Origin: Candidatus Tectimicrobiota bacterium
Lineage (GTDB): Bacteria > JACPSX01
Assembly (NCBI GenBank): GCA_016193065.1
Contig: JACPSX010000186.1
Span: 1-8,027, forward strand
Reading direction: 5' to 3'
DNA: 8,027 bases
The number at the start of each line of letters is the position of its first letter. Positions within the stretch are counted from its first letter, which is position 1. The notes below the pieces were generated by a model. The model did no database searches. It was not told the origin of the DNA and worked only from the letters and a program-made list of their open reading frames with translations. The position numbers and the translations under genes were made by a program. This document shows positions 1 through 5,301 of this stretch, one piece after another.

Positions 1-125
1 TGCCGGGCCAAGGAACGAGCATAACGAGGCGCGAGCCCTGAGCCGACTGAGGCGTACTGAGGGAGTACGCCGCAAGGACGGCGAAGGGCGATGAACGAAG
101 TTAGGCGAAGTTAATTGGGCCGGCA
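1..125 (+). repeat. Palindromic element: 125-nt imperfect hairpin abutting the adaptor stop codon
   Basis: Non-coding. The ends are inverted repeats: 1-11 (TGCCGGGCCAA) pairs with 115-125 (TTGGGCCGGCA) at 10 of 11 positions. Moving inward, 14-16 pairs with 110-112, 22-25 with 100-103, 35-38 (GCCC) with 86-89 (GGGC), 42-45 (GCCG) with 79-82 (CGGC), and 51-58 (GGCGTACT) perfectly with 64-71 around a 5-nt GAGGG loop. Between stems, the internal loops repeatedly carry GA opposite GA or GAA, as at 40-41/83-84, 17-18/107-109 and 26-27/97-99. Tandem G.A pairs are stabilising only on the plus strand; the minus strand would carry TC/TTC there. The layout suggests a REP- or MITE-like intergenic element, or a structured RNA read opposite to the operon. 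It has no T-tract on either side, so it is not a standard intrinsic terminator. The left flank lies outside the window. Confidence 0.72.
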
Positions 126-1526
126 CTAGAACCTCCGGAACATGGGGGGAGCGCCGGGCGGCCCTCCGCTGTTGGCAGTAGCGGACCGCAGGCCTATGAT
201 AACCTGATCCCCCTCTTTAAGGCTCCCCGAAACGATCTCCGTGAAGCGTCCGTCACTGATCCCCGTCTGCACGGAAACCGGCTGCAAACTTCCGCCCTGC
301 CCCAGCATCCACACTTGCATCCGGTCTCTCTCCACGGTCTGCCGCTTTTGCCCTCCCGAACCTTTTCTTGCCACTGGAGACTTTTCTCCTCCCCCTACCG
401 GTGTGGGAGGGCGAAACCGCGTGGCCTGAACAGGAAGCCTCAAAACGTTGTCCTTCCGGGATGTGATAATGGACACCTGGGCCGTCATCCCGGGCATGAG
501 CCTCTTTCCCGGGTTTTCCACAGTCACCACCGCATTGTAGGTTACCACGTTTTGCACCGTGGTGGGATTGAGACGGACCTGTGAAACCCGGCCTCGGAAG
601 GTCTGCGAGGGGAACGCATCGACGGTGAACTGGACTTCCTGGCCCTCCTGAATCCTGCCCACATCTGCTTCTGGAACACTAGTGTCGATCTGGAGCCGGC
701 TGAGATCCAGGGCAATGATAAAAAGGGTTGGAGCTTGTAGACTGGCGGCCACCGTTTGCCCCACGTCCACGTTTCTTGCCACCACGATGCCGTCAATGGG
801 GGAATAGATCGTGGCCTTCTCCAGATTGATCTGGGCCTGACGCAGAGCCGCAGCGGCCTGGGCAACCTGAGCTTCGTTTGTCTTGATCTGAGCCTGCGCC
901 GACTGGACTCTGGCTCTGGCTGCCTCCAGATCCGCCTCCGCTTGCTGGACCTGAGCTTCCACAACTCTCTTCTGAGCCACGGCCAGCTCGTAGGCCGTAT
1001 TTGCCACCTCCACATCTCTCTGCGCAATGAGGTTGCGCTGCCAGAGAGCGGTCTGCCTGTCCCGATTATCCTTGGCGTCTTTCTCACTTACCCTGGCCTT
1101 TTCCGCGTTGGCCCGCACACTGGTCAGGTTGGCCTGGGCGCTCAGAAGAGCGGCCCGGAAGTTTTCCAGAGAAGCCTTGGCGTTCTCCACCTGGGCTCGA
1201 GCCGTTTGAAGATTGGCTGCAGCTTGAGCCACCTGGGATTCAAAGGTGTCCGTATCGAGTTGTGCCAGGATCTGCCCGCGCCGCACTGCAGAGTTGAAGT
1301 CGGCGTAGAGCTTTTTAATCGTGCCAGACACCTGGCTTCCCACCAATACCGTCGTGATGGGGTTGACGGTACCGGTGGCCGTAACCCTCTCGACGATATT
1401 GCCCCGCTCCAGCCGGGCCAAATTGTACTGTGGATCGCTGGCACCCCTTCCCCGCCACCACAGGATCCCTGCCGCTACGGCCGCGATCCCAGCCGCCGCT
1501 CCGAGCCCTCGCCACCGCTTGTTCAT
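126..1526 (-). CDS. Efflux pump periplasmic adaptor, HlyD/MacA-like membrane fusion protein
   Basis: Adaptor that would bridge an inner-membrane ABC or RND pump to a TolC-type channel. Residues 8-24 form one hydrophobic anchor. Residues ~34-91 and ~232-262 are the two halves of the lipoyl-like domain (GSQVSGTI, YSPIDGIVVARNVDVGQTV). They flank a long Ala/Gln/Glu-rich coiled-coil hairpin (~92-231). The beta-barrel follows (~265-365, with TSVPEADVGRI, FRGRVSQVRL and MPGMTAQVSI), then a charged Gly/Pro/Lys linker (~371-400) absent from compact family members, and a membrane-proximal domain (~401-446). The hairpin tip has Arg157 and Leu161 of the channel-docking R-x3-L-x6-S motif, but Ala168 in place of the Ser. 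At 466 residues it is longer than E. coli MacA (about 370). The ATG lies 1 nt after the stop of the upstream gene behind GGAGG, so translational coupling is likely. MacA-type adaptors usually precede macB; here the 1-125 palindromic element follows instead. MacA-like over RND-type is a preference, not proven. Confidence 0.92.
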   Translation of the reverse strand: MNKRWRGLGAAAGIAAVAAGILWWRGRGASDPQYNLARLERGNIVERVTATGTVNPITTVLVGSQVSGTIKKLYADFNSAVRRGQILAQLDTDTFESQVAQAAANLQTARAQVENAKASLENFRAALLSAQANLTSVRANAEKARVSEKDAKDNRDRQTALWQRNLIAQRDVEVANTAYELAVAQKRVVEAQVQQAEADLEAARARVQSAQAQIKTNEAQVAQAAAALRQAQINLEKATIYSPIDGIVVARNVDVGQTVAASLQAPTLFIIALDLSRLQIDTSVPEADVGRIQEGQEVQFTVDAFPSQTFRGRVSQVRLNPTTVQNVVTYNAVVTVENPGKRLMPGMTAQVSIITSRKDNVLRLPVQATRFRPPTPVGGGEKSPVARKGSGGQKRQTVERDRMQVWMLGQGGSLQPVSVQTGISDGRFTEIVSGSLKEGDQVIIGLRSATANSGGPPGAPPMFRRF

Positions 1527-1527
1527 C

Positions 1528-1535
1528 TCACCTCC
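1528..1535 (-). promoter_or_regulatory. Shine-Dalgarno of the adaptor gene, overlapping the upstream stop codon
   Basis: The minus strand reads GGAGGTGA, then G, then the ATG at 1526. GGAGG sits 4 nt from the ATG, and its TGA is the stop codon of the SurA-like gene. A ribosome ending one frame is placed to start the next, so the two proteins are probably made in a coupled way. Confidence 0.75.
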
Positions 1536-2283
1536 CTACCCCTCCCTCTTTACTTTGGCCGCGCGGACCGGGAAAAAGTTCCCTGGCGGGGACTTCGTCG
1601 CCACCGACCAGTTTGAGATCCTCCGAGGGGATGGTAATGCGCGCCCGGTCCCGCAGCTCCCGCGTCCATTCCTGAAGGCGCGCGTTGAACTTGCGGGCGG
1701 CGAGAAGTTGTTCAATCCGGCCCTTGAGCTCTTCGAGCGGGGTTTCTCCTAACTCCCCGCGCTGCTCCTTATAGTATTCCTCGATCTCTCCTGCCGTGAC
1801 CCGGATGAACAGGCGCAGGCGCAGGTCCATGTACTTCAGGGCCAGAAGCTGGCGGCGCACCAGTTCGCGGATCACTTCCTCACTCACTCCAAGGGCCTTT
1901 CGTCTCTGCTCCCGGCTTTCCGCACCTCCCAACAGGGCCATCCGCCGGCGGATCTCGGAGTCCACTTCGTCCGCCGTAATCTCAACGATCTGCCGTCTTC
2001 TGGCCTCTTGGAGGATGAGAACCTGATCGATCAATTGGGCCAGAGATTCACCGGGCTCCGTGTTCCGCATCGAGCCGGGGCCCGGAACCAAGCTCTGCAG
2101 GGCCATGAAATCCGTCAGATCCTTCGAGGTCAGGACCGTGTCATTCACCACAGCGAGAACTCGCATAACCAAGCCGGCTCCTGCGGAACTCGCCGGGGTG
2201 AAAAGCCCCCAGAGGAGTCCCACGACCGCCAGAGCGCTCTCCAGCCACCTGTGCCGCAGCCACCCGGTTCCTGATTTCACCAC
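1528..2283 (-). CDS. SurA-like periplasmic chaperone without a parvulin PPIase domain
   Basis: Secreted 251-residue protein. A signal peptide is visible: basic N-terminus, hydrophobic core ~16-30, and a likely cut after ASSA near residue 34. The mature part starts with the SurA/PpiC N-domain signature (RVLAVVNDTVLTSKDL, residues 41-56). Next come a helical stretch with LAQLIDQVLILQEARRR (81-97), a helix beginning ITADEVDSEI (102-111), and an ALGVSEEVIRELVRRQLLAL segment (130-149). A C-terminal helix (LEELKGRIEQLLAARKFNARLQEWTRELR, split here at ~185-211) ends in RARITI. In SurA one or two parvulin domains lie between these N- and C-terminal parts (about 430 residues in total). Here the interval is only about 20 residues, so the isomerase is missing and a holdase or escort role for unfolded outer-membrane proteins is inferred. 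It sits 13 nt after the Omp85 gene. The start is GTG, with a second GTG directly after; a GAGGAG site 9 nt upstream supports the first. Confidence 0.83.
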   Translation of the reverse strand: MVKSGTGWLRHRWLESALAVVGLLWGLFTPASSAGAGLVMRVLAVVNDTVLTSKDLTDFMALQSLVPGPGSMRNTEPGESLAQLIDQVLILQEARRRQIVEITADEVDSEIRRRMALLGGAESREQRRKALGVSEEVIRELVRRQLLALKYMDLRLRLFIRVTAGEIEEYYKEQRGELGETPLEELKGRIEQLLAARKFNARLQEWTRELRDRARITIPSEDLKLVGGDEVPARELFPGPRGQSKEGGVGR

Positions 2284-5193: not shown

Positions 5194-5301
5194 CTCGTGC
5201 CGTTCCAACTATTTTGGGCTACGTTCCCGGTTCGCGTAGTCCATACTTTTGCTGCCACGTACATCGCTCAAATTGGGCGCATCAAGTTGGAACGGTACTA
5301 G
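5194..5301 (+). repeat. Palindromic element with 17-bp terminal inverted repeats, ending at the tamB stop codon
   Basis: The left arm 5194-5210 (CTCGTGCCGTTCCAACT) is the inverse of the right arm 5285-5301 (AGTTGGAACGGTACTAG) at 15 of 17 positions. Inside are two hairpins: 5216-5223 with 5235-5242 (8 pairs, one G.T), and 5265-5269 with 5275-5279 (5 pairs, one T.G). The whole resembles a three-way junction. The mismatched terminal-stem position 5199/5296 is also G.T on the plus strand. These wobbles would be A.C mismatches on the minus strand, so the plus strand folds better. The right end contains the tamB TAG stop (5298-5300) within CTAG. There is no open reading frame for a transposase, so if mobile it is a MITE- or REP-like passenger. 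Confidence 0.72.

Follow-up and report, generated by a model that had tools for sequence, protein, structure and literature searches.

The window analysed here, 8,027 nucleotides of contig JACPSX010000186.1 from a Candidatus Tectimicrobiota bacterium, opens directly on a long hairpin that abuts the stop codon of an adaptor gene, which raises the question of whether such a structure is a mobile DNA, a functional RNA or both. A first-pass annotation had hesitated between a structured RNA antisense to the operon and a mobile single-stranded hairpin of the REP/MITE kind. We consider, with a probability of about 0.7, that positions 1-129 are one copy of a non-autonomous MITE, and that it carries a conserved hairpin in which tandem G·A loops recur on a single strand.

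The hairpin at the contig edge and its copies

With RNA parameters, a folding energy of -65.4 kcal/mol (z -8.8) was obtained for the + strand of window 1-125, a value equalled by 0 of 200 shuffles, while the - strand reaches -51.8 kcal/mol (z -6.4); DNA parameters give -34.7 (z -6.8) for the + strand versus -25.4 (z -3.8) for the - strand. The fold comprises an inner stem of 8 bp (GGCGTACT/AGTACGCC) and further GCCG/CGGC, GCCC/GGGC, AAC/GTT and TGCCGG/CCGGCA stems, with GA/GA, GA/GAA and GA/GCA internal loops between them. An exact-pattern search places its core stem-loop, TGAGGCGTAC-TGAGGGA-GTACGCCGCAAGGA with a GA/GCA loop at the foot, at 48..78 on the + strand. The nested arms pairing from 1 to 125 and the restriction of the G·A loops to the + strand, both read from the letters by the first-pass annotation, are borne out by these folds, whose energies are far better than chance. 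None of the three outcomes that it had named as refuting (folding like shuffled controls, a lack of further copies, a lack of covariation) was observed.

The mobile unit extends slightly beyond its hairpin. Based on its fold, its copies in the same genome and its match to the covariance model described below, element 1 is delineated as a type C copy of the G·A-ladder hairpin MITE at 1..129 on the + strand, with the hairpin at 1-125 and a terminal CTAG at 126-129. The description as a 125-nt end-to-end hairpin therefore holds for the pairing but not for the end of the element, to which the CTAG belongs. Similarly, the hairpin does adjoin the HlyD/MacA-type adaptor ORF (126..1526, - strand; HlyD domains by Pfam) but does not come after its stop, since the TAG given by the ORF list at 126..128 (- strand) lies inside the terminal CTAG. 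The contig starts at the first base after the left CTAG, so that element 1 is deprived of its 5' CTAG and upstream flank; such a start inside an element is typical of an assembly break caused by a repeat.

The search for further copies advocated by the first-pass annotation was successful. In the 2.9-Mb assembly of this genome (294 contigs, 86% complete), a sequence search recovered copies of 73-99% identity and a covariance model counted about 11 in all. These copies are dispersed and devoid of coding capacity. At their ends they read CTAG-TGCCGG...CCGGCA-CTAG, with a single case of CTAA...CTAA, and the matching tips suggest, from their sequence, that a 4-bp YTAR target would be duplicated upon insertion. 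A second dispersed palindromic MITE of at least 20 copies in this genome, element 2, is found at 5194..5301 (+ strand) with the terminal inverted repeat CTAG-TGCCGTTCCAACT. Both elements have CTAG-TGCCG tips and the two families are entangled, because the left half of element 2 directly precedes four copies of element 1.

Relatives in other bacteria and their terminal repeats

The core pattern TGAGGCGTAC-N(3-10)-GTACGCCGCAANGA gave 13 matches in 4 of 386 sampled genomes, in which its reversed control gave 0, and at least 118 stretches in the species collection. Among the matches listed, carriers are mostly Desulfobacterota MAGs, together with Methylomirabilota, Nitrospirae and Bdellovibrionales. 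Since these copies were selected by the core pattern, invariance of the core is no evidence and only positions outside it are informative. A covariance model (R1) was made from 28 relatives that share less than 80% identity and all come from genomes other than that of the window; it finds positions 23..102 of the + strand (cmsearch; 42 bits, E 1.5e-10). At the level of sequence comparison, element 1 is thereby shown to be homologous to a hairpin family spread over several phyla.

The first-pass annotation did not recognise a named RNA family, and a scan of the hairpin against Rfam 15 agreed, with no score above the gathering threshold. The element was matched in neither plasmid nor phage collections, and searching the open literature by sequence or topic revealed no description of the family, though the supplements of two Geobacter studies (PMC2700814, PMC2996986) may hold relatives. 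Viral contigs of IMG/VR contain 15 stretches with the core (L330-L344), possibly in provirus flanks, and one of them displays an apparent ATGCTTT duplication (L337, near 7554). An integron attC site was also envisaged for GTTAGGC at 100-106, which resembles an R' box, and was set aside as this motif is absent from other family members.

Mobility is best documented for type A relatives. These units measure about 151-156 bp, start with GATGGCTTCGTAAAAAGTC and close with the complementary sequence, and have terminal inverted repeats of ~20 bp whose ends read GACGG...CCGTC. Exact target duplications of 6 bp occur in 13 of 30 complete copies (0.38 expected) and of 7 bp in another 7 (0.03 expected), i.e. 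20/30 against about 0.4 expected, with examples such as AAAGTTT, AATGTAT and ACCTATT; these statistics hold for type A, and the CTAG/CTAA tips of type C could also reflect target preference combined with inverted symmetry. An additional outer arm pairing with the 3' arm is retained in about 40 relatives. Between two congeners, orthologous sites were found with the element present in one and absent in the other; a clean empty site was sought in congeners and not found, the junctions being eroded at about 83% identity. Of the two kinds of mobile hairpin put forward by the first-pass annotation, the MITE is thus upheld by terminal inverted repeats, dispersed non-coding copies, target-site duplication in complete type A relatives, and presence/absence in congeners.

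The same hairpin core is located between differing terminal repeats: those of type A, the YTAR-like ends of type B, the TGCCGG...CCGGCA repeats with CTAG tips of type C, and locus-specific arms in genome G131. Conversely, type A repeats also enclose unrelated palindromic cargos, either CCTTCGACAGGCTCAGG-type or ATTCC...GGAAT dRS3-like (L101, L156, L165, L275, L302 and others); a single MITE backbone thus serves many different palindromes. Because these ends enclose other cargos and the core occurs between other ends, terminal repeats and hairpin behave as separable modules. In addition, GGGTACCC-type hairpins (GGGTACCCA...TGGGT) are nested in several copies (L006, L007, L102, L150, L307 and L309), as if other palindromes were inserting into the loops of the element.

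Which strand is maintained, and by what

On a MAFFT alignment of the relatives made from sequence only, 14 of 24 stem pairs are changed on both sides. Double-changed cells amount to 99, compared with 27.6 ± 4.4 after shuffling and no more than 34 when the partners were slid. Template-switch correction of quasi-palindromes can mimic this measure, but it would be expected to remove the G·A loops as well. The test for compensatory changes proposed by the first-pass annotation hence reveals strong covariation in the stems. Arm mismatches are strongly skewed in the 118 listed copies, with 843 G·A and 167 A·A versus 56 C·T and 21 T·T, and the + strand folds better than the - strand in 103 of these copies with RNA parameters and in 111 with DNA parameters. 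Stems are therefore maintained by compensatory change, and purine-purine loops on one strand only. As recognition of duplex ends needs neither compensatory change nor one-sided G·A loops, the folded single strand itself, be it RNA or DNA, is well supported as the object of selection. A strand test comparing G·T with A·C was dropped, because the loops themselves contain A·C oppositions that confound it. The + strand coincides slightly more often with the C-rich strand (69 vs 44, P 0.02; GC skew), an imbalance too weak to build on.

The most serious alternative is a functional RNA, be it a terminator, a 3' UTR stabiliser or an antisense sRNA, for which the MITE would be no more than a vehicle, with selection acting on the RNA fold. 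Covariation of the stems and stabilisation of RNA by sheared G·A loops would both fit, as would the preference for gene 3' ends and the T runs of at least 4 in each arm of about 90 of the 118 listed copies, which recall bidirectional terminators and are present in most type A/B relatives. However, at the family loci the better-folding strand is more often antisense (49) than sense (17) to the adjoining gene, and Rfam offers no match. The window type itself is without U-tracts: no intrinsic terminator (GC stem plus T-tract) was detected in window 1-400, and no promoter inside element 1. We regard this explanation as possible yet rather doubtful, and an RNA of the + strand antisense to the operon stays putative. 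Within the MITE reading, the U-tracts in both arms of types A and B may provide bidirectional transcription termination at gene ends, whereas the folded strand of the window type more likely serves the element itself, since type C has no U-tracts.

Template-switch correction of quasi-palindromes is a known mutational process, and it could keep arms complementary in a neutral palindrome devoid of any selected function. The six G131 copies (L306, L308, L310, L312, L314, L324) are near-identical inside, and their outer arms are wholly different from copy to copy while remaining mutually complementary, as this process would predict. Yet correction would pair mismatches, and G·A is kept 15:1 over C·T; moreover, outside the search pattern, several bases of the loops do not vary at all in sequences that are less than 80% identical. 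A neutral origin of the complementarity is accordingly improbable.

A further feature to be explained is the position of the elements at stop codons. Besides the natural adaptor TAG in element 1, the TAG of the TamB-like gene (5298-5300) lies in the right CTAG of element 2, and it represents the natural end of that gene because its TamB domain reaches residue 892 of 893 (Pfam). In the same BamA/TamB operon, the 251-aa product of ORF 1528-2283 (- strand) has no Pfam match, and its position suggests a SurA-like periplasmic protein. Considering the two families together, 18 of 26 elements in this genome have one end that coincides exactly with the stop of an ORF of 80 codons or more, and in 43 of the 118 listed copies a long opposite-strand ORF terminates only a few bases from the 3' end. 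When type A empty sites were rebuilt, those reached by a long ORF usually had their own stop at the same codon. These counts could be taken as the mark of a dedicated mechanism that directs insertion to stop codons, and not as a side effect of the target sequence. Nonetheless, when CTAG sites of this genome that lie outside elements are considered, 28 of 68 already represent such stop codons, so that target sequence and purifying loss of harmful insertions explain most of the overlap, and a dedicated targeting is unlikely.

An element whose folded strand is read as single-stranded DNA by a Y1 transposase (RAYT or IS200-IS605-like) is less credible still: despite a strand-asymmetric hairpin and Y1 genes in all four carrier genomes examined, none of their 14 Y1_Tnp loci has the core within about 1.5 kb, no element-flanked Y1 gene exists among them, and complete type A units combine target duplications with terminal inverted repeats, which are absent in Y1 elements. 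The REP/RAYT half of the first-pass proposal is thus not retained, with a size of 125-158 bp, far above that of REP sequences, no repeat-flanked transposase, and CTAG/TGA/TAG instead of GTAG ends.

Proposed mechanism and comparison with known systems

In the MITE reading, a DDE-type transposase acting in trans would recognise the terminal repeats, which read CTAG-TGCCG in this genome, insert the element at YTAR sites and duplicate them. In the 86% complete assembly, DDE_5 is absent, and the single DDE_Tnp_1 gene has no ends matching the element. Since CTAG is rare and often a stop codon, insertions there would leave the protein intact and survive, which probably accounts for the observed location at stop codons. 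With less certainty, the + strand would function as a folded single strand. We further propose, tentatively and somewhat short of an even bet, that selection maintains the G·A-ladder hairpin as a folded single strand in at least several phyla, and that this nucleic-acid module, independent of any one transposon, has been joined to several unrelated sets of terminal repeats. It would then amount to a structured element, either hitch-hiking or domesticated, that has so far escaped description.

If correct, this interpretation gives a widespread repeat of environmental bacteria its anatomy, with boundaries, target duplications, strand and a covarying secondary structure, and it accounts both for the contig break at the window edge and for repeats that overlap stop codons exactly. 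Mobile palindromes are usually regarded as duplex junk; here, selection would keep one strand with tandem G·A motifs, and the nature of a reader of the folded strand becomes a directly testable question.

Among known systems, insertion sequences of the IS701 (4 bp), ISH3 (4-5 bp), IS1634 (5-6 bp) and ISPepr1 (7-8 bp) groups generate target duplications (PMC2266710) of the same kind as the lengths deduced for the element, which differs from them by the lack of a linked transposase and by terminal sequences that do not match. REPs are 20-40 bp long, with GTAG types accompanying RAYT genes and CGTC types made of 8-9-bp stems and 4-5-base loops (PMC3733652). The element resembles both as a dispersed intergenic palindrome, with type A ends that recall the CGTC tag, but it is 125-158 bp long and multi-looped. 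The multicopy sequences described in Geobacter metallireducens and G. bemidjiensis (PMC2700814, PMC2996986), which include a set of 24 copies with GRCGTAGCGCTGCTACGCC at their centre, are likewise palindromic, partly RNA-like and found in Desulfobacterota; their centre sequence is different, and the passages that present them report no mechanism, target duplication, covariation or strand asymmetry. Finally, parallels are offered by bacterial MITEs such as ERIC/RU-1, of 127 bp (PMC2759123), and the MITEs of Coxiella (PMC5896051). The element shares with them its size, palindromic form, dispersion, terminal inverted repeats and non-coding nature. Unlike them, it has a hairpin with one-sided G·A loops that is maintained through compensatory change, and it spans phyla with its core placed between unrelated terminal repeats. 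Mobile palindromes as such are already known, and what appears new here is the combination of cross-phylum covariation, a one-sided G·A ladder and the exchange of terminal repeats.
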